Of a DNA stretch of 64,000 nucleotides, positions 624 through 53,616 are shown one piece after another. Both the position numbers and the translations under genes were made by a program. Position 1 is the stretch's first letter, and the number at the start of each line of letters is the position of its first letter. The notes under the pieces were generated by a model. That model saw only the letters and a list, made by a program, of their open reading frames with translations. It ran no database searches and had not been told where the DNA came from. The DNA is from Antedon mediterranea (Eukaryota; Echinodermata; Crinoidea; Comatulida; Antedonidae): NCBI RefSeq assembly GCF_964355755.1, contig NC_092672.1:22564501-22628500 (forward strand), written 5' to 3'.

Positions 624-1709
624 GGGTGTCACGAAAGCTCAGACCACGAAAGCTCAGACCCCCTAAGACCTAAGATCACGAAAGCTAAGACCCAACACCT
701 AAGATTACAAATACTAAGATATACTACAGCTTAAAAACAATGCTTGTTTATCCATACATAATTTTAAACACAGTAGGTTTCATTTATTACCATAAATATA
801 ATTTAATACTACCGCAAAACATAGATAAACTCACATTATTTTCGCCCGTTGAGTAAATGTATATTTTTTCTTTACAACAAACAAACTTGACGGGTTGTTT
901 GTTGGTATATATTTACTCCATTGTGTTGGTTCAGAGGATGTTTTTCTTACGCACCTGCCTTTCTTGTATTTTGACTCCAAATTTGTTGACTAACTTTATC
1001 CTGAACACCACACTTTAAAATTAGGACTTATAAGTACTTTCAGAAGGAGAAACACATAATAACAAATAAATAAATCCTTTAAATTGATGATTTTACAGAT
1101 GTGTTTCTTTGTATACTGTAATGACAATGTAACTCCTCGAGCTCCCCATGCTCAATGTTTTTTGTTTCTATGGAGCGCCAAAAGAGCAACAATAATAGTA
1201 CAAGTATAAAAACAGAAAGAAAACGAAACAAAAAACATATCATGATTTTTAAATTAAAATTTATTTGCCAGTATTTATTTCTTCGTACTTGCATGATTAT
1301 ACTATTATCATTACAATTTTAATTTTACATTGTTCCATCCACACTGTAGATGGACTCCACAGAGTTTTCAGCCCTCTATATAATTTTTGCTCTTTTGACG
1401 TTCCATAGAAACAAAAACATTGAACATGGCCCATGGGGTAGGCCTACTGTACTGTAGGCTAGTCATTTTGTGTGCGAGAAAAACGTCTGTAAAATCATCA
1501 ATTTAAAAATGTATTTGTTACTTTTTATGTGATTCTTTTTCATGAAAGTGCCAATTCTAAGGTGTGGTATTCAGAATAAATGTTGGGAGTTAAAATACAA
1601 GGCAGGTGCGAAAGATAAATATTTGTAATCTTAGGTGTTGGGTCTTAGCTTTCGTGATCTTAGGTCTTAGGGGGTCTGGGCTTTCGTGGTCTGAGCTTTC
1701 GTGACACCC
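624..1709. mobile_element. Non-autonomous DNA transposon, copy 1, 10-bp target duplication
   Basis: The element starts GGGTGTCACGAAAGCTC and ends with its inverse (CGTGACACCC). The inverted termini are about 95 bp and contain a 15-bp direct repeat (CACGAAAGCTCAGAC twice) followed by CCTAAGA-type short repeats. It is flanked by a perfect 10-bp direct repeat, ggtatttgta, at 614-623 and 1710-1719, which fixes both ends. Inside, the motif TATGGAGCGCCAAAAGAGCA (about 1170-1189) recurs inverted near 1383-1410, so the interior is also partly foldback. A 71-codon frame on the minus strand (1079-1294) recurs in copy 2 but resembles no protein and is probably chance. Length is 1,086 bp, with no transposase. 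A 9-10-bp duplication suggests a Mutator-like or other long-duplication superfamily; this is inference. Confidence 0.9.
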
Positions 1710-1719
1710 GGTATTTGTA

Positions 1720-2507
1720 TCATGAACACATTCTCTACGTTACCAAACTGTTCCAAGCCAAACACACACCATTTAACAAACGACTGACACAAAAAATCTA
1801 TGAGCGTAGTCAGCCTAGACGAGTACTAAGTCTTACCATTTGCCTCTTTTTTCATTTAAGGTAAAGATTAATAAGATAATAAATTAGTAACTTCTATCAT
1901 AATTAATTATGGAAAACTACAGGGATATTGTAAATTAGAAATGTGAAGTATGAATATATTCACTGTGATGTAACACATACACATCTATCAGGCACACACT
2001 GCAGAATAAGAGTAATTTTCAGAATAATCATAATAATTAATAGGTCTTGATAGTAGAGTAGAGGGAGGCCATTGCCCCTGTATCCGCCCTCTGTTGATCT
2101 TGCATTCGCCTGCATCATGGTTTTTCAAGGTTAAACAAACTTCCTGTTGAAATACTGACTGTTCTATTTAACTCAGTTCAACCTTGTTTTAACAATAGTC
2201 AATCTTTCAATTCATGACATTTTCTCACTACAACTCAAACATTCATTATTTGCATACTAATAAATTGCATTAGTGCCAAGCCATAATAACATCAATTTCC
2301 ATAGACAGCTGCCAATACTGTAAACTATTTTATTTTGCAGGTTCCTAACTGGGCAGCAGTGCCTCTTGTGGTTGTTACCTTACCACAAAGGCAGAAATAG
2401 CAAAGCATTGAAGAAGACTGCTCATAAAAGTGCGCCAAGGAAATGTCAGACAACATAGTACGGTATGTTTTTGCTATAGGCCTACAGTATACAGTACAGA
2501 TAATAAA
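1720..2507. other. Non-coding; diverged relative of 35.24-35.46 kb
   Basis: No gene is seen. The stretch 2130-2420 resembles 35240-35460, sharing for example TCTATTTAACTCAG, ACTCACAAACATTCA-like and CTTGTGGTTGTTACCTT segments. Around 2370-2410 there is a single, internally shortened version of the 72-bp unit that forms the array at 35.4-36.4 kb. Confidence 0.5.
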
Positions 2508-2509
2508 TA

Positions 2510-4378
2510 CTGCAACATTTGGACGCGTAGACTACGTTTCGTACGCGTGGCCACTTCGTAGGTTTCGCATGGCGTAATCTACGCAAGCTAACATGCTACG
2601 CGTAGTCTACACGTAGCCTACGAGGGAGAGCTAGGAGGGGAAATCCCAATGTTCAGATTATTGTGTACTGTGCTACATGCACCACACGGAATTAGTTAAC
2701 GAATTTGAATACTAGTTTTCATCAAATTTAAAATGCGAGTTAATTACTGTGAAGTAATAATAAATGTATTAATATTAGTATTAATTACTGTGTGTTGGTT
2801 GTGTTAAAATGGGACATTTATTTTTATGAAAGAAGAACAAGTGTAGTACATCTATCACCGATCGGCCAACGTACGGACGGACGGCGGTCGTCGTCTGTTT
2901 GTGTGAAATGGCCTCCGGCTAGGCCTAGCTAGCTTGCTAAAAAGGTAGGGTTACCGGCGTACCTACCGACAGTTTAATTTTAAAATATGTGGTACGCCTA
3001 TAGTACTTATAGGCCTACTTAGTAGTAGTACTGTATGATAATCCATACTGTGTACAAGCGTTAAATACGATGTACATGGCGTGAAAATGTGAAATAATGT
3101 GGTATAGCCTAGCTAGGTGACAGAAGGATATTTTCTCGATACGACAGTTTTCGCCGTGAAGCTGCTGTTTACCCACGTGTGTGTATCGCGCAGTACCACT
3201 CTACAGTCTGAACTATGTTTGTTTACTAATACTAGGCTATAATAATGAACGATGTTTCGTTTTAAAATTGCGTTTAAATGAAATATTACGCTTATTTAGT
3301 ACTACTGTATGGGATAATATGAATTGTTTAAATACTGTAAATGTCAAAATAATAGAATACAAATACGATATTATTTTTGTTCCAACGGAAATCGAGACGG
3401 ATCACTCCATTTGTAATTCATTCGCCCAGTGTGTTTATATCCACGTGTTTATGATCCGCGGATGGATACTCTCTCTGAACTGTACTTTTATGTTTTGCTT
3501 TTAACCTTCAATTTAGTGAAGTTCAACTTTTATTAAATAAAGTCTTGCATATTTCCTAACCCTAAAATTTATTTTTATTTATAACTAAAATAACATTTAT
3601 TTAAATACTATCTAATTTATTATCGCGCATGACTAAAAAAAAACCAAAACAACAAGATCAGGCAAGCACATGTTATGCATGGAGGTATTATACCATGTGT
3701 TATGTGTCCTCCGATCCTCCTCCTCTCTGCTGATGACGATGTTCTGAACAACCTGTAACTTGACCCTCCACCGATCCTCTGCTGCAGGTTGTTACAATAG
3801 CTAATAATGGAGTTTGATGTACAGTTACGACAGTTTCAAACCTGGATATTTTTTGTTCAAATGAAACATACTGAGTACTGTATTAATTACTTATAAAAAA
3901 TTAACTTCCAATTTTAGGCCTACTACTAATACTATTGCTATGGAAGGTAGTCATAATAACGGCCCGTCATCAATTCATTTTGTACACTACTGCCTGGCCG
4001 GCGATGGTGAATGTACAGCAGTAGCCTAGGCTAGGCCTAGTTAATTAGACTTTTCGCGTCTAGCCTAGGCTTTGAGCAATTTTAAATGCTATTTTCTTTA
4101 GAAAAATTTGAATTTCAAGTATGTTTAATAATGATGATGATATTATTGTATTGGCGAAACAATCGTATCATTTCTATTTATTCGAACCTTTCGTAGCCTG
4201 CTTAGCCGTCGACGATGTACTTGTACACAGTTGAGTTTGGGGAATTCCCACACACAGTTGATCACAACGTAGGCTACGAATGCTACGCGTAGCCTACGCA
4301 CTACGAATGCTACGCCACGCAACCGCTATGCACCCGCCACACGTAGACTACGTTACCTACGCGTGGCAAATGTTGCAG
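2510..4378. mobile_element. Inverted-repeat DNA element flanked by TA
   Basis: The left end CTGCAACATTTGGACGCGTAG is matched by the inverse of the right end (CTACGCGTGGCAAATGTTGCAG). TA dinucleotides at 2508-2509 and 4379-4380 may be a TA target duplication. The termini carry many interleaved CTACGCGTAG and CGTAGRCTACG palindromes (2520-2630 and 4270-4365). The interior has no convincing coding sequence; a 107-codon frame at 3181-3504 resembles nothing I know. A non-autonomous element of 1.87 kb is the simplest reading; the superfamily is uncertain. Confidence 0.65.
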
Positions 4379-5122: not shown

Positions 5123-5133
5123 GGCAGCATAGA

Positions 5134-10040: not shown

Positions 10041-10112
10041 AGGTTTCGCCAGGGCTCAAACCGGGACCTTCTGCGTGTTAAGCAGACTTGACAACCACTA
10101 CACTACGAAACC
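10041..10112 (-). tRNA. tRNA-Val(AAC)-like gene
   Basis: Read on the minus strand, a seven-pair acceptor stem GGTTTCG/CGAAACC is perfect. The anticodon stem TCTGC/GCAGA closes a seven-base loop TTAACAC with anticodon AAC, and the T loop reads TTTGAGC. The D region (TAGTGTAGTGGTT) matches metazoan tRNA-Val well. One T-stem pair is mismatched (C-T), and TTTGAGC departs from the usual TTCGANN. A run of five Ts follows immediately downstream, as expected for a Pol III terminator. It could be functional or a tRNA-derived retroposon head; the second tRNA-like sequence 210 bp away on the same strand favours caution. Confidence 0.65.
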
Positions 10113-10399: not shown

Positions 10400-11027
10400 A
10401 TAACCATATAACTACATAACGCTGTGGTGTGTGTCACACATTGTGGATTCTTAATTAAACAAATTAATTAACAAAAAATTAAAAATCCGGCTCTATAGCT
10501 TTGAGGACATGTCCCTGTAGTATGTTCATGCCAAATCCCAGCTCAATACTACAACTAATAAGGGAGGAGTAGTACTTTAAAAATCGCACTTTTTACTCAA
10601 TAGTGTCCAGATGGTGGAGGAGAAAATGAGTAAGTACTAGACTCGGGTACCCCGAGTAAAAAAAGTCCAAATGGTTGAACTACACTATCCTTAGAGTAAA
10701 TCGAAAAGAAATTATCGAAACGGAGAGATTAAAAATGTGCAAGAATAAATCGGCGTTCGGTATATAAAATTACTAGAGGGCGCTATTAGTTTTAAACGAA
10801 CTGAACAATAGAAAATTCCAAAAGCCGATTAGAGTTTCTTTTTAAATTAGTGTTTCAATAATTTTTGTTGGTTTGAACGGTAATATTTAGTATATTTACT
10901 TTAAGCATAGTTTAATAGTAATGGCAATAAGCGCTTTGTACGAACGAATATTATTATTAAGAGAGAAAAAATATATATAGAAAAGCACAGCACTCAATTG
11001 CCATCATATCATTGCTTTCTTCTACAG
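10400..11027. other. Non-coding, nothing recognised
   Basis: There is no gene, array or inverted repeat that I can support between the tRNA pseudogene and the 48-bp array. Confidence 0.5.
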
Positions 11028-14000
11028 TATAACAATTAATGGTACATGAACTGAGACGTACCACCAGGTGCACAATATAACAATTAATGTTACATGAACT
11101 TAGACGTACCACCAGGTGCACAATATAACAATGAATGTTACATGAACTGAGACGTACCACCAGGTGCACAATATAACAATTAATGTTATACATGAACTGA
11201 GACGTACCACCAGGTGCACAATATAACAATTAATGGTACATGAACTGAGACGTACCACCAGGTGCACAATATAACAATTAATGTTACATGAACTTAGACG
11301 TACCACCAGGTGCACAATATAACAATTAATGTTACATGAACTGAGACGTACCACCAGGTGCACAATATAACAATTAATGGTACATGAACTGAGACGTACC
11401 ACCAGGTGCACAATATAACAATTAATGGTACATGAACTGAGACGTACCACCAGGTGCACAATATAACAATTAATGGTACATGAACTGAGACGTACCACCA
11501 GGTGCACAATATAACAATTAATATTACATGAACTGAGACGTACCACCAGGTGCAGAATATAACAATTAATGTTACATGAACTGAGACGTACCACCAGGTG
11601 CACAATATAACAATTAATGTTACATGAACTTAGACGTACCACCAGGTGCACAATATAACAATTAATGTTACATGAACTGAGACGTACCACCAGGTGCACA
11701 ATATAACAATTAATGGTACATGAACTGAGACGTACCACCAGGTGCACAATATAACAATTAATGGTACATGAACTGAGACGTACCACCAGGTGCACAATAT
11801 AACAATTAATGGTACATGAACTGAGACGTACCACCAGGTGCACAATATAACAATTAATATTACATGAACTGAGACGTACCACCAGGTGCACAATATAACA
11901 ATTAATATTACATGAACTGAGACGTACCACCAGGTGCAGAATATAACAATTAATGTTACATGAACTGAGACGTACCACCAGGTGCACAATATAACAATTA
12001 ATGTTACATGAACTGAGACGTACCACCAGGTGCACAATATAACAATTAATGTTACATGAACTGAGACGTACCACCAGGTGCACAATATAACAATTAATGT
12101 TACATGAACTGAGACGTACCACCAGGTGCACAATATAACAATTAATGTTACATGAACTGAGACGTACCACCAGCTGTGCACAATATAACAATTAATGTTA
12201 CATGAACTGAGACGTACCACCAGGTGCACAATATAACAATTAATGTTACATGAACTGATACGTACCACCAGGTGCACAATATAACAATTAATGGTACATG
12301 AACTGAGACGTACCACCAGGTGCACAATATAACAATTAATGTTACATGAACTGAGACGTACCACCAGGTGCACAATATAACAATTAATGTTACATGAACT
12401 GAGACGTACCACCAGGTGCACAATATAACAATTAATGTTACATGAACTGAGACGTACCACCAGCTGTGCACAATATAACAATTAATGTTACATGAACTGA
12501 GACGTACCACCAGGTGCACAATATAACAATTAATGTTACATGAACTGGGACGTACCACCAGGTGCACAATATAAAAATTAATGTTACATGAACTGAGACG
12601 TACCACCAGGTGCACAATATAACAATTAATGTTACATGAACTGGGACGTACCACCAGGTGCACAATATAACAATTAATGTTACATGAACTGAGACGTACC
12701 ACCAGGTGCACAATATAACAATTAATGTTACATGAACTGATACGTACCACCAGGTGCACAATATAACAATTAATGTTACATGAACTGAGACGTACCACCA
12801 GGTGCACAATATAACAATTAATGTTACATGAACTGATACGTACCACCAGGTGCACAATATAACAATTAATGTTACATGAACTGATACGTACCACCAGGTG
12901 CACAATATAACAATTAATGTTACATGAACTTAGACGTACCACCAGGTGCACAATATAACAATAAATGTTACATGAACTGATACGTACCACCAGGTGCACA
13001 ATATAACAATTAATGGTACATGAACTGAGACGTACCACCAGGTGCACAATATAACAATTAATGGTACATGAACTGAGACGTACCACCAGGTGCACAATAT
13101 AACAATTAATATTACATGAACTGAGACGTACCACCAGGTGCACAATATAACAATTAATATTACATGAACTGAGACGTACCACCAGGTGCAGAATATAACA
13201 ATTAATGTTACATGAACTGAGACGTACCACCAGGTGCACAATATAACAATTAATGTTACATGAACTGAGACGTACCACCAGGTGCACAATATAACAATTA
13301 ATGTTAAATGAACTGAGACGTACCACCAGGTGCACAATATAACAATTAATGTTACATGAACTGAGACGTACCACCAGGTGCACAATATAACAATTAATGT
13401 TACATGAACTGAGACGTACCACCAGCTGTGCACAATATAACAATTAATGTTACATGAACTGAGACGTACCACCAGGTGCACAATATAACAATTAATGTTA
13501 CATGAACTGATACGTACCACCAGGTGCACAATATAACAATTAATGGTACATGAACTGAGACGTACCACCAGGTGCACAATATAACAATTAATGTTACATG
13601 AACTGAGACGTACCACCAGGTGCACAATATAACAATTAATGTTACATGAACTGAGACGTACCACCAGGTGCACAATATAACAATTAATGTTACATGAACT
13701 GAGACGTACCACCAGCTGTGCACAATATAACAATTAATGTTACATGAACTGAGACGTACCACCAGGTGCACAATATAACAATTAATGTTACATGAACTGG
13801 GACGTACCACCAGGTGCACAATATAAAAATTAATGTTACATGAACTGAGACGTACCACCAGGTGCACAATATAACAATTAATGTTACATGAACTGGGACG
13901 TACCACCAGGTGCACAATATAACAATTAATGTTACATGAACTGAGACGTACCACCAGGTGCACAATATAACAATTAATGTTACATGAACTGATACGTACC

Positions 14001-14735
14001 ACCAGGTGCACAATATAACAATTAATGTTACATGAACTGAGACGTACCACCAGGTGCACAATATAACAATTAATGTTACATGAACTGATACGTACCACCA
14101 GGTGCACAATATAACAATTAATGTTACATGAACTGATACGTACCACCAGGTGCACAATATAACAATTAATGTTACATGAACTTAGACGTACCACCAGGTG
14201 CACAATATAACAATAAATGTTACATGAACTGATACGTACCACCAGGTGCACAATATAACAATTAATGTTACATGAACTGAGACGTACTACCAGGTGCACA
14301 ATATAACAATTAATGTTACATGAACTGAGACGTACCACCAGGTGCACAATATAACAATTAATGTCACATGAACTGAGACGTACCACCAGGTGCACAATAT
14401 AACAATTAATGTTACATGAACTGATACGTACCACCAGGTGCACAATATAACAATTAATGTTACATGAACTTAGACGTACCACCAGGTGCACAATATAACA
14501 ATTAATATTACATGAACTGAGACGTACCACCAGGTGCAGAATATAACAATTAATGTTACATGAACTGAGACGTACCACCAGGTGCACAATATAACAATTA
14601 ATGTTACATGAACTGAGACGTACCACCAGGTGCACAATATAACAATTAATGTTACATGAACTGAGACGTACCACCAGGTGCACAATATAACAATTAATGT
14701 TACATGAACTGAGACGTACCACCAGGTGCACAATA
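11028..14735 (+). repeat. Minisatellite/satellite array, 48-bp unit, about 77 copies
   Basis: The unit begins ACAATTAATGTTACATGAAC and continues through GAGACGTACCACCAGGTG. Copies vary at a few fixed positions (ATGTTAC, ATGGTAC or ATATTAC; CTGAGAC, CTGATAC, CTTAGAC or CTGGGAC; GTGCAC or GTGCAG). Four copies carry a two-base insertion (CAGCTGTGCAC) near 12171, 12463, 13424 and 13713. Variants recur at an offset of exactly 1,252 bp, so the array has higher-order structure. Each unit has a CAGGTG E-box and a GTGCAC palindrome. Long minus-strand frames arise only because 48 is divisible by three. Confidence 0.97.
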
Positions 14736-16401: not shown

Positions 16402-17468
16402 AAACTACACCTTTACATAGTTGGCATAAACTACACCTTTACATAGTTGGTATAAACTACACCTTTACATAGTTGGCATAAACTACTCCTTTACATAGTT
16501 GGTATAAACTACACCTTTAACATAGTTGGCATAAACTACACCTTTACATAGTTGGTATAAACTACACCTTTACATAGTTGGTATAAACTACACATTTACA
16601 TAGTTTGCATAAACTACACCTTTACATAGTTGGCATAAACTACACCTTTACATAGTTGGCATAAACTACACCTTTACATAGTTGACATAAACTACACCTT
16701 TACATAGTTGGTATAAACTACACATTTACATAGTTGACATAAACTACACATTTACATAGTTGGTATAGACTACACCTTTACATAGTTGGTATAGACTACA
16801 CCTTTACATAGTTGGTATAAACTACACCTTTACATAGTTGGCATAAACTACACCTTTACATAGTTGGTATAAACTACTCCTTTACATAGTTGGTATAAAC
16901 TACACCTTTACATAGTTGGCATAAACTACACCTTTACATAGTTGGTATAAACTACACCTTTACATTGTTGGTATAAACTACACATTTACATAGTTTGCAT
17001 AAACTACACCTTTACATAGTTGGTATAAACTACACCTTTACATAGTTGGCATAAACTACACCTTTACATAGTTGGTATAAACTACTCCTTTACATAGTTG
17101 GTATAAACTACACCTTTACATAGTTGGCATAAACTACACCTTTACATAGTTGGCATAAACTACACCTTTACATAGTTGGTATAAACTACACCTTTACATA
17201 GTTGGTATAAACTACACCTTTACATAGTTGACATAAACTACACCTTTACATAGTTGGTATAAACTACACCTTTACATAGTTGACATAAACTACACCTTTA
17301 CATAGTTGGTATAAACTACACCTTTAACATAGTTGGCATAAACTACACCTTTACATAGTTGGCATAAACTACACCTTTACATAGTTGGCATAAACTACAC
17401 CTTTACATAGTTGGTATAAACTACACCTTTACATAGTTGACATAAACTACACTTTTACATAGTTGGCA
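16402..17468 (+). repeat. Minisatellite, 26-bp unit, about 41 copies
   Basis: The unit is AAACTACACCTTTACATAGT followed by TGGYAT. Variants at one position (TTGGCAT, TTGGTAT, TTGACAT, TTTGCAT) are interspersed, and two copies are 27 bp (CTTTAACAT). Short blocks of variants repeat, for example TTGGTAT then CATTTACATAGTTTGCAT near 16570 and 16975, suggesting internal duplications of several units. Confidence 0.95.
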
Positions 17469-18441
17469 TCAAAATAACATAAAAAGAATACAAACAATAC
17501 AACAAACGGATACAAAATAAATGGCGTGAATACAGGAACAACTAATTTTAAACCAACCGACTCGATCTCTGTTGTAGTCACACATCACTGAAATAAAAAA
17601 CCATTAAATATTAGAGTAATAAGTGAAAATAATCATAATAACTTAAACTATAGTATATATAATAATGACTGAAAAATATCGATAACTGAAAGGGTAACAT
17701 ACACTACTCCACACTAACATTTGCAAGCTAGCTCTGAGATTATAATTTTGTTTTTCCATGATCTTTATCAACATAGATTAAAATGTTATTGCTGAGGAAA
17801 AGTGTATAGTGTTTATGTGTACTGTTGCATACAAAGTCACGTTAAATTAATAATGTTTCTCTCCGAAGTCCAGGCAATCTAACAACAGGATGCAGGATCT
17901 ATTATGCTATAATAATAAATTAATAATGTTTCCCTCCGAAGTGCTATACTAGATCACGTTATACCCAGATATTTATAATTTATACTACACTCTAGATAGA
18001 AAAAGAGATCATTCAAACATACTAATATCGATCAGCAAGAAGTTAATTTTTTAATCAATTGTTTAATAAGTGAAAAAAATGAGTTGCAACCATAATTTCC
18101 ACATTTGGCTAGCCTGAGATCATGTTTACTATTATAAATGCCAATACCTTTAGTCTTATAATAGTGCCCTCTATAATGGTTTGACATTTTTTCAAAATAT
18201 TATAGTGCCCTCTATAGTTTAGACATAATTTTATAAAACCTCCAGGAATATTTAATTTTTCTAAATTGATAATTTTAGGTTCACATAAATTGACTGCTTT
18301 ATAATTATCAGCGAAAGACGCTGCATGGATCCATATCAGTTTGTATATTGCGTTAATGAGGACGATTTTTTATTTGTTATTTTTTAAATCTTTTTGGCTC
18401 ATCTGACAAAGCTAAGTCCTATGCAGATCTTCATTTTTTAA
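17469..18441. other. Non-coding, AT-rich
   Basis: No gene is seen. Strings found at 16202-16228 and 16373-16394 recur at 17869-17920. The motif TATAGTGCCCTCTATA occurs twice near 18163 and 18204. Confidence 0.5.
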
Positions 18442-20190
18442 ATTTCCTCTCGGCATTTAATACCATCGACTCTCTTATGTATTAATAGATACATATGTAT
18501 TAATTCGAATGTACCGGCTATTGATGACATTTCAGAGGATTTTTTATCTCAAGTTGACTTTCCTTGTGACGAAATCTTGAATATTTTATCAACGTTGAAT
18601 ATTACTAAAACAGCTGGACCTGATGGTATTCACCCACGCATCTTAGTCGAACTAAAGGATATCATTTGCTATCCCCTCCATATTATTTTTACGAAATTGT
18701 TTCAAGAAGGAGCCGTCCCTAATAGTTGGAAACGGGCTACAGTGGTACCGATTTTTAAAAAAGGAGTGAAGTCTGACCCAAGCAACTATAGACCTGTGAG
18801 TTTAACTTCGGTAGTTGGTAAAATTATGGAGAGAATTATCAGGAAGGAATTATTGGACTTTCTTGAACATCACTCACTTATTTGTTATGAGCAATTTGGT
18901 TTCCGGCAAGGTCGTTCCTGTGCTTTACAATTACTTGATGTTCTTGAAAACTGGTTTTCTTATTTTGATAATCAGGATTGTTTTGATTGTATCTACCTTG
19001 ACTACAAGAAGGCTTTCGATAGTGTGCCTCATCATAGACTCCTTCTGAAAATGAGTGCATTGGGTATTAGAGGTAAACTTCTAAACTGGTTTCAAGAATT
19101 TCTTAACGATAGACAACAACGGGTTAGTGTCAATGGATGTGTTTCAGATTGGGCTGATGTTCGTAGTGGTATCCCGCAAGGAAGCGTCGTTGGACCTGTT
19201 CTTTTCATTATGTTTATAAATGATTTACCTTCTGTTATTTCCTCCTCTGTACGCATGTTTGCAGATGATACTAAATTGTATAGAGTAGTTAACACTGTGA
19301 ATGATGCTCAAGTTCTACAAGAAGATTTAGAGAAAGCATGTGACTGGTCTGACAAATGGCAATTACCTTTTAACGAGGGTAAGTGCAAAGTAATGCACTT
19401 TGGGAAGAAAAACAACAAACATCTGTATGCCATGCGTGGTTTCTTATTGAATGAAGTTGATCATGAAAAAGACCTCGGTGTTACTATTGACTCTAAACTT
19501 GTTTTTAATGTACATGTGGCAGATGTAGCAATGAGAGCAAATCGGAAGTTGGGCATGGTATATCGAGCTTTCAAGTTTTTAAATATGGATGGGTTTCTTC
19601 GTTTATATAAAGCTATTATTCGTCCGACCTTGGAATACTGCAACGTTGTTTTTAACTCGCTACATTGTAAGGAGGAAGACCTATTGGAAAAAGTCCAAGA
19701 ACGTGCCACCAAGCTTATTTTTTCCATTCGTCATTTACCTTATTCAGAAAGGCTGAAAATTCTCAACCTACCTACTCTCGCATACAGAAGGCAAAGAGCT
19801 CATTTGATACAGATTTTTAAAATTTTACATGGAGTGGATAGTATTTCTGCTGATTCTTTTTTTGAGCGTGATGAAGATGTTAGAACACGTGGTCATTCTT
19901 TTAAATTAAAATTTAAGTTCTCACGCACAAATTGGATGAGGGACTCATTTGGTCGAAAAGCTATTATATTATGGAATTCGTTATCGGAGGATGTAGTAGC
20001 TTCAAGATCAACCAATCAATTTAAGTCCGGTCTTGAACGGGCATGGTCCAACCACCCTCTTAAATTTGCGCCATATTCAAGAGTTGATGTAATTATCAAG
20101 AGGGGCTTATAGGCATAGCCTAGCCTCGACTCCGGACCCAGCATTGCTGAGCTCCGGAAACAAGTAAACAAGTAAGTAAGTAAGTAAGAT
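18442..20190 (+). mobile_element. 5'-truncated LINE, CR1/L2-like
   Basis: A reverse-transcriptase reading frame is followed by a short 3' region (about 50 bp past the stop) and a terminal run of AAGTAAGTAAGTAAG at 20163-20188. A short-repeat 3' tail rather than poly(A) fits CR1- and L2-type elements. The frame is open from 18442, after a TAA, but recognisable homology starts near 18511. No endonuclease domain is present upstream, so the element is 5'-truncated, the usual outcome of incomplete target-primed reverse transcription. Clade assignment is by motif memory only. Confidence 0.85.
18577..20112 (+). CDS. LINE reverse transcriptase (partial ORF2-like)
   Basis: The frame encodes about 511 residues of an RNA-directed DNA polymerase that would copy the element's own RNA at a nicked target. 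Numbering from 18577 (a TTG, not a demonstrated start; the frame is open upstream to 18442), the motifs in order are: GPDGIHP (14-20), SNYRPVSLTS (69-78), FGFRQGRSC (107-115), YLDYKKAFDSVPH (140-152), GIPQGSVVGPVLF (198-210), the catalytic FADDTKLY (228-235) and FNEGKCKVMHFG (265-276). Residues 380-511 are the C-terminal region seen in CR1/Jockey-group elements. There is no internal stop or frameshift across 1.5 kb, so the copy is fairly young, although it lacks the N-terminal endonuclease and cannot be autonomous. It is not a host gene. Confidence 0.9.
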   Translation: MNILSTLNITKTAGPDGIHPRILVELKDIICYPLHIIFTKLFQEGAVPNSWKRATVVPIFKKGVKSDPSNYRPVSLTSVVGKIMERIIRKELLDFLEHHSLICYEQFGFRQGRSCALQLLDVLENWFSYFDNQDCFDCIYLDYKKAFDSVPHHRLLLKMSALGIRGKLLNWFQEFLNDRQQRVSVNGCVSDWADVRSGIPQGSVVGPVLFIMFINDLPSVISSSVRMFADDTKLYRVVNTVNDAQVLQEDLEKACDWSDKWQLPFNEGKCKVMHFGKKNNKHLYAMRGFLLNEVDHEKDLGVTIDSKLVFNVHVADVAMRANRKLGMVYRAFKFLNMDGFLRLYKAIIRPTLEYCNVVFNSLHCKEEDLLEKVQERATKLIFSIRHLPYSERLKILNLPTLAYRRQRAHLIQIFKILHGVDSISADSFFERDEDVRTRGHSFKLKFKFSRTNWMRDSFGRKAIILWNSLSEDVVASRSTNQFKSGLERAWSNHPLKFAPYSRVDVIIKRGL

Positions 20191-22451: not shown

Positions 22452-23330
22452 AAGACGGGTAAGTGTGCTCACAACACTCAATTTATGTTGTAATGGGTGA
22501 CATGAATGAAAGTGTAAATATTGGTTGGTATGAGTAGGTGTTCTGTAAACTTATGTAGTGATTTTGTTGTCAATGAGTGAAATGGAAACGTCTAGGAAAG
22601 GTATAGTGTTATTAGTCATATGTTCTGTGAAAGTGATGTTGTGTGTGGGATCGATTGAGTTTAGATGATAATTAAGGTTGTCAGCAGCTCCTTCTGGAAC
22701 AACTGCTAAAACGTCATCTACGTATCTTTTCCATATCAGTGGCTTAATTTCTGTATTAGCTGTTTTAAGTGCTTCCTCTTCTAGCCATTCTAGAAACAGG
22801 TTCACCACAATAGGGCTCACTGGGCTTCCCATCGAAACACCTTCTATTTGTTTATAGAAGGATCCGTTGAAGCTGAAATAGGTGGTATTTATCAGAAGGG
22901 ACAGCAATTCTAAAATGTCATCGACGGAGAGATTTTTACGTTCTTTTAAGTCATCATCATTTTTTAGTTTTATTCGTATGATTTTCAATGCTAATTCTGT
23001 GGGTGTCTTGGTGAATAGGGATACAACATCGTACGAGACAAATGTGTAGTTCTGTGGGACATTTAACGTCGCAAGTTCTTTAACTAAGTCTTTGGAGTTC
23101 TTTACATGATGTATAGTGTTTCCAACTAGGGGCTCTAAAATATCGGCGAGGCTTTTTCCTAAGTTATAGTATATGGAGTTGATGCAGTCAACAATAGGAC
23201 GAAGCGGTACATTCATTTTGTGTATTTTTGGAAGGCAGTAAATTCGTGGTGTTACTTCTGCTGTAGGGAACAGTATTCTTTTTTGCTTTGGTGTTATTTT
23301 CTCTTCTTGGATAACACCAAGCGGTAAACT
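22452..23330 (-). pseudogene. Penelope-like reverse transcriptase, broken
   Basis: On the minus strand the protein begins within a conserved PRIYCLPKIHK region (about 23240-23208). It runs on through NVPLRPIVD, FVSYDVVSLFTKTP, GVSMGSPVSPIVVNLFLEWL, the catalytic RYVDDVLAVV (about 22735-22700) and FLDVSISL. A TAA at 22551-22553 interrupts the frame, but homologous residues (VYRTPTHTNQYL, then HPLQHKLSVVSTL) continue in the same frame to about 22452. The N-terminal RT part and the GIY-YIG endonuclease expected of Penelope elements are absent. Upstream, in-frame homology stops near 23330 at an inverted repeat. The element sits between the two parts of duplicated copy 1 and is missing from copy 2, so it arrived after the duplication or was lost from one copy. 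Confidence 0.88.
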
Positions 23331-31770: not shown

Positions 31771-32080
31771 AGCTATACTAGACAAAAAGGGTGCTGGAGT
31801 AATAGTATCGTAGAAGGAACAGGTAGGCTGGCCCAGGCCTAGTAAAAGTTAGGCATATAGCTAGCTAGGCCTAGGTACTGTTTAGGCATAGCATACTAAG
31901 GCCTGTCTTGCTTACTAGGCCTGGGCATAATATTAGGCCTATAGGATAGATAATCATAGCACTTTTCCTACTGGAATTACGGAAAGACTTGGCGAAAAAC
32001 GCCGTGGTTAGGATTCCGGCACCGGAACTCAACTGCTCACCGTTAGGGAATCCGACACGCTATTGCGCATGCCCAGAGAG

Positions 32081-34193
32081 GGGTGTCACGAAAGCTCAGA
32101 CCACGAAAGCTCAGACCCCCTAAGACCTAAGGGCGCGTTTATACAACACGCTATTACACGCATATTCTACACGCCTACGAAAAGTGTGTTGTATAACAAC
32201 AAAGAGATTCCGTGTAATGAGATTTTAATTGCAAAAAAGGCTACTTGGCTGAATCCTAAAATTTGGTGGATTCCCGGTCGCCGTTACCGTGTTGGAAGTG
32301 TCCTCAGGGTATATTTTGACCTCTCGTTAAAACACGTCGTAATATCAATCATTGCTAACAAGATTGGGCCCATTTATTGCTGCTTCGCTGCCAGCAATCA
32401 TCCTCCTACCACGTCTTACGCCAAGCCTAGTGGGGCCAACTCGTAGTGGGAGTAGGCCTCTATCGTTTCCCACTCCAAACAGAATTAAAAAAATAACATC
32501 GCAAAAATGGCATCTTCTTCCATAGTGTATAGATAATAATAATAATAATAATAATAATAATATTTATTCGGTCATCAATGTAAAAATAACCAGGAATGAG
32601 AATAGGCTAAAGCCCAAACAGATTCTGCACTCACTCCATACAATACAATCAGTTAAAGATAAAACCATATACAAGAAAAATACAAATAAATTATACATAA
32701 CATGAAATATAATGTTTTGTTAGAGCAGCCTTAAATATTGAAATTGTTTGTGAATCTTTTATGTCATTTGGTATTTGCTCCCATAGTCTAGGAAAGAAAG
32801 AAATAAAACAATGAAACCCTTAAAATAACTTTTATTAATTTAAATGAACCGAGAACAAAATAAACAACAATGCAAACGTGAACGAATACAATATAATGAA
32901 AATGGTAAAAACCGCACGAATACATCGGACAGCGAGGAGGCGACGACGATTGTTGACAACTCAGCCAATTCAAGCGCGAACATCGATTTGACCTTTTATC
33001 CTAGCATGAACTGCGTGTTGATGAAACTTCCGGCATAACACGGTATCGTGATTTCTAGTATAACAGCAAACGTTAAGGTGGGTTGACCTCGGTCCGAACA
33101 ACACGCTAAAAATTAAAGCCGTGTTCAAATTTAGGGTGTTGTATAAACACGACCTAAGATCACGAAAGCTAAGACCCAACACCTAAGATTACAAATATTT
33201 ATCTTTCGCACCTGCCTTGTATTTTAACTCCCAACATTTATTCTGAATACCACACCTTAGAATTGGCACTTTCATGAAAAAGAATCACATAAAAAGTAAC
33301 AAATACATTTTTAAATTGATGATTTTACAGACGTTTTTCTCGCACACAAAATGACTAGCCTACAGTACAGTAGGCCTACCCCATGGGCCATGTTCAATGT
33401 TTTTGTTTCTATGGAACGTCAAAAGAGCAAAAATTATATAGAGGGCTGAAAACTCTGTGGAGTCCATCTACAGTGTGGATGGAACAATGTAAAATTAAAA
33501 TTGTAATGATAATAGTATAATCATGCAAGTACGAAGAAATAAATACTGGCAAATAAATTTTAATTTAAAAATCATGATAAGTTTTTTTGTTTCGTTTTCT
33601 TTCTGTTTTTATACTTGTACTATTATTGTTGCTCTTTTGGCGCTCCATAGAAACAAAAACATTGAGCATGGGGAGCTCGAGGTGTTACATTGTCATTACA
33701 GTATACAAAGAAACACATCTGTAAAATCATCAATTTAAAGGATTTATTTATTTGTTATTATGTGTTTCTCCTTCTGAAAGTACTTATAAGTCCTAATTTT
33801 AAAGTGTGGTGTTCAGGATAAAGTTAGTCAACAAATTTGGAGTCAAAATACAAGAAAGGCAGGTGCGTAAGAAAAACATCCTCTGAACCAACACAATGGA
33901 GTAAATATATACCAACAAACAACCCGTCAAGTTTGTTTGTTGTAAAGAAAAAATATACATTTACTCAACGGGCGAAAATAATGTGAGTTTATCTATGTTT
34001 TGCAGTAGTATTAAATTATATTTATGGTAATAAATGAAACCTACTGTGTTTAAAATTATGTATGGATAAACAAGTATTGTTTTTAAGCTGTAGTATATCT
34101 TAGTATTTGTAATCTTAGGTGTTGGGTCTTAGCTTTCGTGATCTTAGGTCTTAGGGGGTCTGAGCTTTCGTGGTCTGAGGTTTCGTGACACCC
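32081..34193. mobile_element. Non-autonomous DNA transposon, copy 2, 10-bp target duplication
   Basis: The ends GGGTGTCACGAAAGCTC and CGTGACACCC are the same as in the 624-1709 element. It is flanked by a perfect 10-bp duplication, gcccagagag, at 32071-32080 and 34194-34203. It is inverted relative to copy 1 and interrupted in its left terminus by a 1,024-bp insertion. Subtracting that insertion and its duplication leaves 1,086 bp, exactly the length of copy 1. The two copies are very similar by eye. The 71-codon frame at 33523-33738 is the counterpart of the one in copy 1 and differs by indel-type changes. Confidence 0.92.
32131..33154. mobile_element. Innermost inserted element, GTTTATACAACAC termini
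   Basis: It splits the left terminus of the copy-2 transposon. The ends GGGCGCGTTTATACAACAC and the inverse of GTGTTGTATAAACACGACC match over GTTTATACAACAC. The host sequence allows two readings: a 3-bp TAA duplication (PIF/Harbinger-like, limits as given) or an 8-bp GACCTAAG duplication (hAT-like, limits 32132-33150). There is no recognisable transposase; frames at 32063-32446 and 32844-33038 resemble nothing I know. A triplet run of ATA/AAT lies at 32537-32563, and the text after it resembles the reversed end of a retroposon. Confidence 0.85.
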
Positions 34194-34904
34194 GCCCAGA
34201 GAGCCGGTAATCGGCGACTCTATACTTTATCAACAGCGATGGATCATTTCATAGCTCCGCAACGGGGCGAACTAGCGTAGATGCCTACTAATACGGGATC
34301 CACTAATAGTAAATACTATACTGTAGGCTAGGCCTACCAGCTAGACGTGACCAGTGGGCCTATTTATTTTGTAATTAAAAAGTGGTTGCTTCATTCATAT
34401 ATAAACTTCATATAATTATGAATTATATAATTACATGAGTTGACTAGATTTATGATTTTTCAAGTTCAAAATAAAAGATTTCATATAACGCATTATAACT
34501 GTACATAACATTCAATCACAAGTTAATTTGTTGACGGCAGCCACCGCGTGGATGTGAAAAAACTGGGGGTCGCAACGCTACTACAGCATTACGATTCTTA
34601 CTGTAGATAGATACTGATTCTTATTAATATCATAATAATTATTTTAACTCGTGACGTAGTCGTATTTTAATTATTAATTCAAGTTCAAGTTCAAGTTCAA
34701 ATTCATGTATGGCCTAGGCCAAGTTTCATCCTTCGCTCTCTTGCTCGCGCAACGACTAACTAGGCTACAGTAAATCCTCTCAGGTAGTGTGGTTTGTGGC
34801 ACAAGCTATAATTCACTTCCCAGAGCTCTGGGCATGCGCAATAGCGTGTCGGATTCCCTAACGGTGGGCAGTTGAGTTCCGGTGTCGGAATCCTAACCAC
34901 GGCG

Positions 34905-35418: not shown

Positions 35419-36440
35419 GTAGCAAAGCATGTTGCATCTTATGGTTGTTACCTTCAGTAGCTATTATTAAATCAAATCATTATCACAGGCAGAATAGCAA
35501 AGCATCTTGCATCTTGTGTTTGTTACCTTCAGTAGCTATTAAATCAAATCATTATCACAGGCAGAATAGCAAAGCATCTTGCATCTTGTGGTTGTTACCT
35601 TCAGTAGCTATTAAATCAAATCAATATCACAGGCAGAATAGCAAAGCATCTTGCATCTTGTGGTTGTTACCTTCAGTAGCTATTAAATCAAATCATTATC
35701 ACAGGCAGAATAGCAAAGCATCTTGCATCTTGTGGTTGTTACCTTCAGTAGCTATTAAATCAAATCATTATCACAGGCAGAATAGCAAAGCATCTTGCAT
35801 CTTGTGGTTGTTACCTTCAGTAGCTATTAAATCAAATCATTATCACAGGCAGAATAGCAAAGCATCTTGTATCTTGTGGTTGTTACCTTCAGTAGCTATT
35901 AAATCAAATCATTATCACAGGCAGAATAGCAAAGCATCTTGCATCATTCTTATGGTTGTTACCTTCAGTAGCTATTAAATCAAATCATTATCACAGGCAG
36001 AATAGCAAAGCAACTTGCATCTTATGGTTGTTACCTTCAGTAGCTATTAAATCAAGTCATTATCACAGGCAGAATAGCAAAGCATCTTGCATCTTGTGGT
36101 TGTTACCTTCAGTAGCTATTTAATCAAATCATTATCACAGGCAGAATAGCAAAGCATCTTGCATCTTGTGGTTGTTACCTTCAGTAGCTATTAAATCAAA
36201 TCATTATCACAGGCAGAATAGCAAAGCATCCTGTATCTTATGGTTGTTACCTTCAGTAGCTATTAAATCAAATCAATATCACAGGCAGAATAGCAAAGCA
36301 TCTTGCATCTTGTGGTTGTTACCTTCTGTAGCTATTAAATCAAATCAATATCACAGGCAGAATAGCAAAGCATCTTGCATCTTATGGATGTTACCTTCTG
36401 TAGCTATTAAATCAAATCAAAATCACAGGAAGAATGGCAA
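35419..36440 (+). repeat. Minisatellite, 72-bp unit, about 14 copies
   Basis: The unit begins GCAAAGCATCTTGCATCTTG and ends ATTATCACAGGCAGAATA. Copies differ by one or two bases (ATTATC or AATATC; TTGTGG or TTATGG; CAGTAG or CTGTAG). One copy near 35940 has a small insertion. The frames at 35325-35978 and 36166-36453 exist because 72 is divisible by three. A single related unit stands at 2370-2410. Confidence 0.95.
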
Positions 36441-38756: not shown

Positions 38757-41520
38757 CAAATACATTCTACAGTATTGTTTTATACCTGTTATATCATGTT
38801 GGTTTATCTGTGCCTTTCTGTTTAATAAAGTGTAATACAGTATTGTCTTATACCTGTTATATCATGTTGGTTTATGTGTGCCTTTCTATTTAATAAAGTG
38901 TAATACAGTATTGTTTTATACCTGTTATATCATGTTGGTTTATCTGTGGCTTTCTATTTAATAAAGTGTATCAAATACATTATTGTTTTATACCTGTTAT
39001 ATCATGTTGGTTTATCTGTGGCTTTCTATTTAATAAAGTGTATTAATACAGTATTGTTTTATACCTGTTATATCATGTTGGTTTATCTGTGGCTTTCTAT
39101 TTAATAAAGTGTATTAATACAGTATTGTCTTATACCTGTTATATCATGTTGGTTTATCTGTGGCTTTCTATTTAATAAAGTGTAATACAGTATTGTTTTA
39201 TACCTGTTATATCATGTTGGTTTATCTGTGGCTTTCTATTTAATAAAGTGTATTAATACAGTATTGTCTTATATCTGTTATATCATGTTGGTTTATCTGT
39301 GGCTTTCTATTTAATAAAGTGTATTAATACAGTATTGTCTTATATCTGTTATATCATGTTGGTTTATCTGTGGCTTTCTATTTAATAAAGTGTATCAAAT
39401 ACAGTATTGTTTTATACCTGTTATATCATGTTGGTTTATCTGTGGCTTTCTATTTAATAAAGTGTAATACAGTATTGTTTTATACCTGTTATATCATGTT
39501 GGTTTATCTGTGGCTTTCTATTTAATAAAGTGTAATACAGTATTGTTTTATACCTGTTATATCATGTTGGTTTATCTGTGGCTTTCTATTTAATAAAGTG
39601 TAATACAGTATTGTCTTATACCTGTTATATCATGTTGGTTTATCTGTGGCTTTCTATTTAATAAAGTGTATCAAATACAGTATTGTTTTATACCTGTTAT
39701 ATCATGTTGGTTTATCTTTGCCTTTCTATTTAATAAAGTGTAATACAGTATTGTTTTATACCTGTTATATCATGTTGGTTTATCTGTGGCTTTCTATTTA
39801 ATAAAGTGTATCAAATACATTATTGTTTTATACCTGTTATATCATGTTGGTTTATGTGTGGCTTTCTATTTAATAAAGTGTAATACAGTATTGTTTTATA
39901 CCTGTTATATCATGTTGGTTTATCTGTGGCTTTCTATTTAATAAAGTGTATTAATACAGTATTGTTTTATACCTGTTATATCATGTTGGTTTATCTGTGG
40001 CTTTCTATTTAATAAAGTGTAATACAGTATTGTTTTATACCTGTTATATCATGTTGGTTTATCTGTGGCTTTCTATTTAATAAAGTGTATTAATACAGTA
40101 TTGTCTTATACCTGTTATATCATGTTGGTTTATCTGTGGCTTTCTATTTAATAAAGTGTAATACAGTATTGTCTTATACCTGTTATATCATGTTGGTTTA
40201 TCTGTGGCTTTCTATTTAATAAAGTGTATCAAATACAGTATTGTTTTATACCTGTTATATCATGTTGGTTTATCTGTGGCTTTCTATTTAATAAAGTGTA
40301 TTAATACAGTATTGTCTTATACCTGTTATATCATGTTGGTTTATCTGTGGCTTTCTATTTAATAAAGTGTAATACAGTATTGTTTTATACCTGTTATATC
40401 ATGTTGGTTTATCTGTGGCTTTCTATTTAATAAAGTGTATCAAATACAGTATTGTTTTATACCTGTTATATCATGTTGGTTTATCTGTGGCTTTCTATTT
40501 AATAAAGTGTATCAAATACATTATTGTTTTATACCTGTTATATCATGTTGGTTTATGTGTGGCTTTCTATTTAATAAAGTGTATCAAATACATTATTGTT
40601 TTATACCTGTTATATCATGTTGGTTTATCTGTGGCTTTCTATTTAATAAAGTGTATCAAATACAGTATTGTTTTATTCCTGTTATATCATGTTGGTTTAT
40701 CTGTGGCTTTCTATTTAATAAAGTGTATCAAATACATTATTGTTTTATACCTGTTATATCATGTTGGTTTATGTGTGGCTTTCTATTTAATAAAGTGTAA
40801 TACAGTATTGTTTTATACCTGTTATATCATGTTGGTTTATCTGTGGCTTTCTATTTAATAAAGTGTATTAATACAGTATTGTTTTATACCTGTTATATCA
40901 TGTTGGTTTATCTGTGGCTTTCTATTTAATAAAGTGTAATACAGTATTGTTTTATACCTGTTATATCATGTTGGTTTATCTGTGGCTTTCTATTTAATAA
41001 AGTGTATTAATACAGTATTGTCTTATACCTGTTATATCATGTTGGTTTATCTGTGGCTTTCTATTTAATAAAGTGTAATACAGTATTGTTTTATACCTGT
41101 TATATCATGTTGGTTTATCTGTGGCTTTCTATTTAATAAAGTGTATTAATACAGTATTGTCTTATATCTGTTATATCATGTTGGTTTATCTGTGCCTTTC
41201 TGTTTAATAAAGTGTATCAAATACAGTATTGTCTTATACCTGTTATATCATGTTGGTTTATCTGTGCCTTTCTGTTTAATAAAGTGTATTAATACAGTAT
41301 TGTCTTATACCTGTTATATCATGTTGGTTTATCTGTGGCTTTCTATTTAATAAAGTGTATTAATACAGTATTGTCTTATACCTGTTATATCATGTTGGTT
41401 TATCTGTGGCTTTCTGTTTAATAAAGTGTATCAAATACAGTATTGTCTTATACCTGTTATATCATGTTGGTTTATCTGTGGCTTTCTATTTAATAAAGTG
41501 TATTAATACAGTATTGTTTT
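38757..41520 (+). repeat. Minisatellite, 68-72-bp unit, about 39 copies, each with AATAAA
   Basis: The unit begins TATTGTTTTATACCTGTTAT and ends TTAATAAAGTGTAATACAG. Three length classes exist, set by the spacer after AATAAAGTGT: TAATACAG (68 bp), TATTAATACAG (71 bp) and TATCAAATACAG (72 bp). Classes alternate in partly repeated blocks. Every unit carries AATAAA followed by GTGT and T-rich sequence on the plus strand, the layout of a poly(A) signal. Frames near 40415-40858 appear only where several 72-bp units follow each other. The array ends 1.6 kb before the first ankyrin exon. Confidence 0.96.
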
Positions 41521-41875
41521 TTAACTCTTATACTATGTTGGTTGATACTCTGTTGGTTGATACTATGTTGGTTGGTCTATCTATTTTTATAAACTGTGCA
41601 TGATGTAAAGTAACTATATTTTTGGTTTATCTGTTGGCCCCTGGCTGTTGTTTGAACTTGGACTACATTAATCTAATAACCTTTGCCTTAGTTTACTGTT
41701 TGTTTGTCAACCTGTTATTCCCTTAGTAATATCATATCTGAAAACTAAGCAAATATTAAACCAGGCTTTGTTGCACTATTGTAGCATTGAATATAGTAGG
41801 TTTATTTATATACTTTTTTTTCACAATAAACTTTTTTTCAGTTTGTCTAAGTCTGTCTTTATACAATTTTGTTGA

Positions 41876-50800: not shown

Positions 50801-51090
50801 AATAAAACTAAAATTAATTATAATGATTAAATAATATTAAAAATATATAGGCCTAGGCGTAGATCCTGGGCCTAATTTTAATTAGGTAGCCTACTAATAC
50901 CTATTATTAGGCTAGTAGGCTAGCCTACTCAAGGCCAGGCTAACTAAGCCGGAAAGCTGCTTCTCTGTAGTAGGCTGCTAGAGAACACAGGTCTAGCAAG
51001 GGCCTAGGCCTAGTATTAAAATAAAAATAGGGCCTATAATATATATGCCTACCCTACCCAGCCAGGCCTAAATAATTAAAATAATGTAAC
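47880..51090 (+). repeat. Tandem array, about 638-bp unit, about five copies
   Basis: Corresponding points (TTCTTGAACAGTAAAATAAA) fall near 47897, 48537, 49170, 49810 and 50450, giving spacings of about 633-640 bp. The two middle units are almost identical and share an insertion (AGGCTGCTAGGTATTGG), so they are the most recent duplicates; the last unit is the most diverged. Each unit contains, on the minus strand, a TTTTTTAG acceptor-like site, about 70-85 bp, and a GTAAG(T) donor-like site. Confidence 0.9.
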
Positions 51091-51844
51091 ATTTCCAAAC
51101 TCATTTGGGTCAGCTGTCACATGAAAGGCAGTGTTGCAACTAGAGTAGACACAAGCCTAAGCCTAAAAATGACACAATTTGAAACGGCCATAGCTCAAAA
51201 ATTCAACCATCACCTCTCGACCATTACTATGTTATAACATTCACAGATAACTAAATTATCATGCAGTACCAAAGAATTAGAGTGAAAATTACATTTTTTA
51301 AAGATACGGACAAACAAACATGTACCTAATTTGGAAATGTCACTCACGTGCGTCAATTGGTCTATGCTTGTAATTTATGGTCCACCCTTCCATTAATTTT
51401 CAGCGTTACATTCCTTGTTAAAAACAAAATGACAACATGCTTGTTTCATCCAGGGACTCTTTAATGAATATTCATATTTTTAGCGACCCTTTATTTTTTT
51501 ATCTCATTCTCATTGGCTGTTTAAAACATGTCTTTAAATGACGTTTGACTCCACTCTGCACACGTGGATTTGTAAGTAATTGTTTATGTATTGTTACTCC
51601 AGCGATACGACTTGTAACGTTGAGGGCGCATGACTTAATTCGTATGTTTGAAACAGCTGTGTGGTGAACTACCCTTACCAAAGGAGAATGCTTAAATAGC
51701 CTTCGCTAACCATTCACTAGGCATTCGAATGCTAATTTACAGGTAATTTTTAGAATTTAGGCATTCATGGTTAAAACCACTTAATCGGAATGCTAAGAAA
51801 AGTTTCCAAGCATTCTTTAGGAATGCTTACAAGAGTCAATAAGC

Positions 51845-52055
51845 ATTCAGAAGCTATCCCGAATGGTAGTGTGAATGCTAAGTTCATTGGTAGCATTCAG
51901 GGAGATATTTTGAATGGTAGTGTGAATGCTAAGATCATTGGTAGCATTCAGGAAGAGATTTTGAATGGTAGTGTGAATGCCAAGATCATTGGTAGCATTC
52001 AGGGAGATATTCTGAATGGTATTGTGAATGCTAAGAACATTGGTAGCATTCAGGG
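51845..52055 (+). repeat. 51-bp tandem repeat, split by an insertion
   Basis: The unit GCATTCAGGGAGATATTTTG continues AATGGTAGTGTGAATGCTAA and ends near CATTGGTA. About four copies precede the 52056-53616 element and about two and a half follow it (53617-53755). The break falls exactly at GCATTCAGGG, which is duplicated by the insertion. Confidence 0.9.
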
Positions 52056-53616
52056 GGGTGTGTAGAAAGCGACGACCTCGAATTGGACGACCCCAACGAC
52101 CCGGGCGACCTCGAATTGAACAACCTCGAATTGAACGACCCATAACACGAAACCGACGACCCCTATAGCCTAGCCTAGCCTAGGCCTAAGTGTGGTATAA
52201 CATCCCGAAGCCGAACATAGCCAAAGATCTTTAAACTATACCTTATTATATACTCGCAAGCAAGCAATTGATTGAAAAAATACAGAAATATCGCCATTTG
52301 ATACTGATTGCGTCGACACGAACAAACGAAAAGATATGGAACGCCAAGAGTGCATCAATAAAACTGCATTCGACATATTAAAAATAAATTAAAAAGAAAT
52401 AAATATTATACAATACATGGTTAAACCATGTAATTACATACTACAATTTTGTTGGTTTGAAACAGCAAAGGAACTTGTAGTCATATTTAATAATTTAATT
52501 GTTTTTAATCTTTCAAGGTAAAAATGCAGTGCACTCCATAATATTTTTCTCGCGTGTATGCCTACCACGTAAAATCACGTTGTCTCTCAGGACTATTATA
52601 TTGATATTCTTCGAATGAGGTTAACTAATTATTATTTTTTATTCACTATCTTTTAATATCATATTTTATTGAATTTTACAATGTTAATACACAAAATATT
52701 TTACGAAAAAACGGTGATTTTATGCAATTATTTTACTTCAACTGCCGCCTGAGGGGGCAACATGTTTACGTCATTTTTGGCTAAAAACGATCATTTTCGG
52801 TCATGTTTTAGGCCTTATATTTTGGAATCTACAAGTCAGATATTCATAATTATTTCTCTTTAATTATAATATTTAATAATATATACTAAAAACCGTGATA
52901 TATAAACTTTGGAATATACATCGTTATATCTAATAATTAATATAAATAGAACTTCTATTAAATAGAAACGAGCACCGGCGAAAGTATTAAGCATTTGGCG
53001 TTTCATAGAAAATAACGTTTTTCTGGCGGCGCCTCAACTTGTCGGCGGCTCAACTTGGCCTAATCCTGCATGGGGAGGGCCATAAGAAAGCTTTACATTT
53101 CACACATGCATTGTATACGGTCAAACCATGGAGGTATAAAAATATTTTTACCAAACCATGGAGCTGGTCAAACCATGGAGCTGGTCAAACCATGGAGCTG
53201 GTCAAACCATGGAGTACCTCCATGGTCAAACCTTACCTGCCGCTGAAAAAGGGGCCTGGTTTGCCATGTTTATGATATTTCGTGTGCTAATCGAGTCGAA
53301 TGCAGTTTTAATGATGCACTCTTGGCGTTCCATATCTGTTCGTTTGTTCGTGTCGACACATTCAGTATCAAATGGCGATATTTCTGTATTTTTTCAATCA
53401 ATTGCTTGCTTGCGAGTATTATATAAGGTATGGTTTAAAGATCTTTGGTTATGTTCGGCTTCGGGATGTTATACCATACTTAGGCCTAGGCTAGGCTAGG
53501 CTATTATAGGGGTCGTCGGTTTCGTGTTATGGGTCGTCCAATTCTAGGTCGTCCAATTCGAGGTCGCCCGGGTCGTTGGGGTCGTCCAATTCGAGGTCGT
53601 CGCTTTCTACACACCC
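52056..53616. mobile_element. Third transposon with 10-bp target duplication
   Basis: The ends GGGTGTGTAGAAAGCGACG and CTACACACCC head inverted arms of about 330 bp (52056-52385 and 53290-53616). The terminal part of each arm is made of a short repeat of the CGACCTCGAATTGGACGACC type. Perfect 10-bp duplications gcattcaggg flank it at 52046-52055 and 53617-53626; the second copy begins the next repeat unit. The inner arm motif ATGGAACGCCAAGAGTGCAT corresponds to ATGGAGCGCCAAAAGAGCAA of the 624 and 32081 elements. The centre has four GGTCAAACCATGGAGCT repeats (53145-53225). No transposase is seen. Confidence 0.9.

Follow-up and report, generated by a model that had tools for sequence, protein, structure and literature searches.

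A 64,000-nucleotide stretch of the genome of the crinoid Antedon mediterranea (contig NC_092672.1; C3:22564501-22628500 in an assembly of 18 contigs totalling 354 Mb; hereafter the window) carries three elements that start with GGGTGT, end with ACACCC and are each flanked by a different, perfect 10-bp direct repeat. The assembly gives 38 matches to the Wnt domain and 14 control genomes give none, which marks the host as an animal. We consider it highly probable that these are non-autonomous cut-and-paste transposons of the Mutator superfamily (Mutator-like elements, MULEs), whose mobility depends on a MULE-type transposase acting in trans and cutting with a stagger of 10 bases, and that the likely source type of one of their two families, A, is an 11.7-kb element elsewhere in the genome. 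For family A, the most convincing reading is that of a new Mutator family with foldback-like composite ends. Both A and the second family, B, look like new families within a known superfamily, not a new superfamily, because a long copy that shares the A ends is flanked by an equal 10-base duplication and contains a transposase-like gene.

The boundaries of the three elements are exact to the base: 624-1709 (1086 bp), 32081-34193 (2113 bp) and 52056-53616 (1561 bp). Their target duplications match at 10 of 10 positions, with ggtatttgta at 614-623 and 1710-1719 (flank comparison), gcccagagag at 32071-32080 and 34194-34203, and gcattcaggg at 52046-52055 and 53617-53626. A first-pass annotation of the window had given these coordinates, ends and duplications without error. 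It had also described termini built from short repeats that differ between the first two elements and the third, and indeed subrepeats with a period of 15 bp occur at both ends of each element (Tandem Repeats Finder, TRF), in two end types. What it had taken for one family is two, A (624-1709 and 32081-34193) and B (52056-53616), with a further relative, C, that has 9-bp duplications.

The first A copy lies on the + strand and has a 90-bp left terminal inverted repeat of ~15-bp subrepeats (624-713, +) that is 98.9% identical to the 90-bp right repeat (1620-1709, −; alignment and TRF). The second is in reverse orientation (−) and is broken by a nested insertion of 1,020 bp (32132-33151), which has inverted ends of its own (GGCGCGTTTATACAACAC / GTGTTGTATAAACACG), is flanked by (g)acctaag, 7-8 bp, and probably belongs to a different family of miniature inverted-repeat transposable elements (MITEs). 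The 2113-bp element is an A copy plus this insertion, and no separate long form. The B copy (+) has a left terminal inverted repeat of 319 bp (52056-52374, +) that is 94.7% identical to the right one (53295-53616, −). It sits within a 51-bp tandem array (51861-53745, TRF) whose other units, by eye, hold the target 10-mer once, so that the window itself preserves the target as it was before insertion.

Allowing up to three mismatches, a 30-mer from the A terminus matches 1026 places in the genome and one from the B terminus 245, against 0 for the reversed control in each case. Family A would thus number roughly 500 copies, provided that most have two ends. Full-length A copies are 97-100% identical genome-wide (among 40 scored of 1302 candidates), and 16 ordinary copies, the window copy and 15 others, differ by a mean pairwise Kimura two-parameter distance of 0.97%, which makes the family young. 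The first-pass annotation had proposed checking duplication length on other copies. We fetched 20 A copies with both ends exact to the 30-mer from 100 listed places, five of them (L001-L005) picked for unusual length, and all 20 have an exact 10-bp duplication. Directly adjoining A copies (C4:22168278; L036 4593 and 5108) were left out of this scoring. The 20 scored copies represent at most 18 independent insertions, since two pairs of copies, L008/L012 and L009/L013, have identical flanks in opposite orientation (contig C1, ~2.90/9.00 Mb and 3.03/9.04 Mb), which points to segmental duplication or to an effect of the assembly. Together with the match counts of both terminus 30-mers against their controls, the uniform duplications establish that the GGGTGT-ended elements are not a product of chance. 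No strong target consensus was apparent by eye in 23 A duplications (20 fetched, two in the window and one from a long element).

The long element lies at C4:32144210-32155897, measures 11,688 bp, has an A end on both sides and is flanked by a 10/10 duplication, tattaatttc. Its left end is 96.7% identical to A 1-90 and 88-97% identical to A 615-721, 724-789 and 761-1086, while its right end is 90.6% identical to A 1-612. Judging from these alignments, the short A form is what remains of an element of this kind after an internal deletion has fused its two end segments. Inside it is an open frame of 874 amino acids (aa; C4:32146204-32148825), which answers the first-pass proposal to look for a long copy with a DDE transposase and agrees with its opinion that Mutator-like elements are nearest. 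The frame aligns with MULE-like frames of 637-707 aa from the same genome at 26-28% identity in the matched part (E 4.8e-10 to 1.4e-9), and two of those match the Pfam MULE profile PF10551 at E 5.2e-6 and 1.4e-5. Residues D288, D357, C378, H381 (a CxxH at 378-381) and E493 are invariant across four aligned sequences, of which two are near-identical, and the 874-aa frame also has a SWIM-like CxCx8CxH. By analogy with known MULEs and from weak profile matches, we take D288, D357 and E493 to be the catalytic triad and the CxCx8CxH to be a SWIM finger. The weak MULE and SWIM matches occur in the expected order, and the best NCBIfam match, also weak (E 0.0067), is to IS256, a bacterial relative of MULEs. 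Other frames of at least 100 aa within the 11.7-kb element span 125-236 aa. The 236-aa frame (L034 8600-9307, − strand) had no match in Pfam, NCBIfam or the PDB; its NACAFL and IDTHP motifs are reminiscent of a cysteine peptidase.

A search of the genome with the MULE profile gave 36 matches, with 97/97 candidates scored, and led to a 651-aa frame and its relatives. This frame is carried by a second MULE element, of 17,490 bp (C2:1368470-1385959), whose ends start CGGTCAG / GGGTCAG and by eye consist of ~11-bp repeats, and which has a 10-bp duplication, cactgttcct (1 of 5 copies checked). The 651-aa frame occurs at 100% identity in five places; a comparison of two 17.5-kb copies gave 99.9% identity over 13,866 bp, and both hold frames that are repeated internally. 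Several other MULE-type loci were considered and set aside. A conventional MULE at C4:19215200 (L022) was tried as a partner, and has unrelated ends and a 9-bp duplication, ggccggcta, by eye. Two sets of MULE-like pieces on C7 are broken: those at C7:10263-10273 kb show 54-97% identity, with stops in several of them, and those at C7:10380-10382 kb show 42-56% identity, also with stops. Around them (both sides of the first locus without its middle, and 16 kb around the second) we found only weak A- or B-like end pattern matches, save one B copy beside the first locus, which inserted independently and has a 10-bp duplication of its own. A locus at C3:12903 kb (43-54%) showed no ends in the 5 kb fetched, and L032 (C5:26124800), which encodes a 706-aa MULE-like frame between repeat-built inverted ends, was left unused owing to an ambiguous duplication. 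Among viral contigs, 119 pattern matches for relatives yielded none that was confirmed.

Family B resembles A in its ends and largely in its duplications. Alignment of the A ends with the B ends begins at base 1, and its score is reached by 3/1000 shuffles. An exact 10-bp duplication flanks 7/9 fetched B pairs and a further copy, L042 (atcaatgttc), and, with the window copy and a pair of B ends 15.8 kb apart included, 9/12 B end pairs in all. The proposed check of duplication length thus holds for most of B, the remainder being discussed below. Matches that span at least B 376-1561 show 92-96% identity with the window copy (self excluded; 40 scored of 784 candidates), from which B looks more diverse than A. 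The 15.8-kb pair (C2:22738531-22754318) was examined as an autonomous B and rejected: it has no duplication, and by eye its frames are reverse-transcriptase-like, of the long interspersed nuclear element (LINE) type. An exact pattern in which the inner boundary of the B terminal repeat is followed by other letters gave 0 matches, a search of low power that allowed no mismatch. We would place B in Mutator by its similar ends and its duplication.

The first-pass annotation had listed 29174-31770 as a fourth element that shares an inner motif with the others. The motif is there, but the region is a composite, in which an element of family C (29206-31015, 1,810 bp, interior related to A) lies inside other repeat sequence. 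This C copy has the ends GAGTGTTGACAAAG / GGGTAGTAACAAAG and a 9-bp duplication, caaaatcgg (29197-29205 and 31016-31024). Repeats like GCCAAAATCGGTCCG occur on both sides of it (29174-29205 and 31016-31770); the sequence around C is possibly a further repeat-ended element, for which we found neither limits nor a duplication in these two stretches. Another C copy, 97% identical, lies inside the A copy of L002 with a 9-bp duplication, aatacaagg, by eye. Ten more were fetched, three of which were without one or both recognisable ends; among the seven scored, five fit 9 bp (two with a tenth base also matching at the border), one matches at 8 of 9 positions and one has no duplication. The C ends are not similar to A or B ends above shuffles in the pairs compared (A-C1, A-C2 and B-C2).

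A, B and C have in common a 20-bp subterminal motif, TATGGARCGYCAARAGWGCA, with 2837 genome matches at up to three mismatches against 33 for a reversed-pattern control. As the first-pass annotation had claimed, it occurs in inverted pairs (+ then −) in all three GGGTGT-ended elements, at 1169-1188 and 1388-1407 in the first A copy, 33410-33429 and 33630-33649 in the second and 52335-52354 and 53315-53334 in B, and likewise at 30206-30225 and 30623-30642 in C. In B it lies ~280 bp from each end. The long A element has it as a tandem pair at ~285 and ~335 bp from the left end, and again ~520 bp from the right end. Around it, stretches of 228-278 bp are 69-77% identical between the A and C copies of the window. 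In the 17.5-kb MULE and L032 we found no match that keeps the core of the motif at up to four substitutions in the stretches scanned, and one poor match in L029/L030.

According to PMC6446971, MULE target duplications span 8-11 bp, with 10 bp for MULE-Mucorales and ranges that include 10 for Phantom, TvMULE, Mutyl and MUDR; A has 10 bp in 20/20 copies and B in 7/9. The terminal inverted repeats are long (90 bp in A, 319 bp in B), and an A-ended copy encodes a MULE-type DDE transposase frame. The first-pass suggestion of an undescribed superfamily, made for the combination of features, is not supported. In the mechanism that we propose, a MULE-type enzyme would bind the 15-bp subrepeats of the ends, which are predicted sites, would cut its target with a 10-base stagger and would mobilise the short copies in trans, with B using a related transposase. 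The 20-bp motif is a putative promoter or accessory binding site; MULE terminal repeats hold transposase promoters, according to section 6 of PMC6446971.

Several observations weigh against this explanation. The assignment of the 874-aa frame to MULEs runs through a chain of homology via its paralogs. Its own Pfam matches are weak and under the curated cut-offs (MULE at 306-382, E 0.1; SWIM at 669-695, E 0.035), and a PDB search with a profile of the frame and its relatives found nothing. The paralogs' MULE matches are themselves marginal in the Pfam scan, scoring 27.3 and 25.8 bits where the cut-off is 27.6; the same paralogs exceed the PF10551 cut-off in the genome search (30.3 and 28.3 bits). 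The C4 long copy is probably not the direct parent of the short A copies, given that it is ~9-12% different from them over much of the ends and they differ by ~1% among themselves. Among 51 scored candidates, only C4 (the whole) and C1 (residues 1-840) encode most of the 874-aa frame in one open frame, and the C1 copy is broken by an A end that replaces sequence near the C-terminus; the two broken C7 loci match much of the frame piecewise. For B, no transposase was found in the places examined, one fetched pair has an exact 9-bp duplication, another matches at 9 of 10 positions, and the distant 15.8-kb pair has none. Finally, compared with the ends of the 17.5-kb MULE, neither A nor B ends show similarity above shuffles.

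Three other explanations have to be set against these data. The elements could form a superfamily outside Mutator, with the MULE-like frame a passenger and another enzyme making the true 10-bp stagger. The weak Pfam match of the frame would fit, as would the 9-bp duplication and unrelated ends, by eye, of the conventional MULE on C4, but two repeat-ended elements bearing MULE frames, the long A and the 17.5-kb element, have 10-bp duplications, and their frames have the D, D, CxxH and E residues in common. The other frames of the 11.7-kb element are moreover short for a transposase, and the 236-aa one, the sole one searched, is without a family match. We regard this explanation as quite improbable. 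IS4EU-type elements have 10-bp duplications, and the only pointer to them is their mention in the first-pass annotation. The long-A frame aligns with MULE-like frames, and its best NCBIfam match is the IS256 one already given; no IS4-family match was among its results from Pfam and NCBIfam, the two profile collections compared. We regard an IS4EU identity as very improbable.

Rehavkus elements, which form a group sister to the MULEs, have a minisatellite close to one end. An element of that type would agree with the animal host, with a MULE-related transposase and with ends made of short repeats. Table 1 of PMC6446971 gives Rehavkus a 9-bp duplication and a PHD finger, whereas A has 10 bp and its frame a SWIM-like motif, with no PHD match up to E 1 in the 874-aa frame, to which that search was confined (other exons are undefined). 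We think this assignment unlikely.

The nearest described design to that of A and B is Tm1, a Mutator/Foldback family of root-knot nematodes, as presented in PMC3169594. Its ends consist of several short motifs and tandem 13-15-bp repeats, comparable with the 15-bp period here, and its terminal CCTACCC and CGGTTAA resemble the GGGT and CGGT starts of the crinoid elements. Like A, it has many MITE-like copies alongside one putative autonomous MULE copy, and a subset has a conserved internal motif, though the motif itself differs. Tm1 also differs in its duplication, which is mostly 9 bp, whereas A has exactly 10 bp in scored copies, B mostly 10 and family C fits 9; in an asymmetric outer 7 bp, where the ends here are a symmetric GGGTGT; and in the 11.7-kb length of the long A element. 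The Tm1 transposase is of Phantom type with FLYWCH (PMC3169594), whereas the 874-aa frame has a SWIM-like motif and no FLYWCH match up to E 1, in a search of the frame only, whose upstream exons are undefined. The same lack of a FLYWCH match separates the frame from the Phantom group of animal MULEs (group 20), to which it is likened by description: Table 1 of PMC6446971 lists animal hosts, duplications of 8-10 bp where given, terminal repeats of 18-613 bp or none, and SWIM in some members, as here. An exact text search of the open-licence part of PubMed Central, with short one-strand strings from the A end, the B end, the core motif and the terminus of the 17.5-kb MULE, gave a single article, an irrelevant one in orthopaedics that contains the B 14-mer. 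On the basis of this short-string search, it is plausible that A and B are undescribed families.

The remainder of the window contains tandem arrays (TRF) at 11024-14735 (48-bp units, ~77 copies), 16402-17469 (26 bp, ~41), 38768-41543 (68-bp units, ~39 copies) and 35420-36440 (72 bp, ~14). Two reverse-transcriptase frames match RVT_1, at 18577-20112 (+, E 2.1e-32) and 22551-23216 (−, E 1.9e-7), the latter with a Penelope-like look by eye, and a tRNA match occurs at 10041-10112 (−, 44.8 bits).

More tentatively, A, B, C and the 17.5-kb element could together constitute a MULE lineage not yet described, whose members are long and have ends built of repeats. Related subterminal modules (the 20-bp motif, flanked in A and C by ~230-280 bp) would be common to families with a 10-bp stagger, A and B, and one with a 9-bp stagger, C. 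This is a possibility that we would put below even chances. If it were true, the module would be an exchangeable control unit, either a promoter or a shared accessory site, and the stagger would be set by the paired enzyme and ends.

The present data link a young, anonymous animal repeat of roughly 500 copies to a source type bearing a transposase-like frame, and would bring further families with a 10-bp duplication into Mutator. Families that are related in their interior stand here side by side with duplications of 10 bp and of 9 bp, making the determinant of stagger length in MULEs directly testable.

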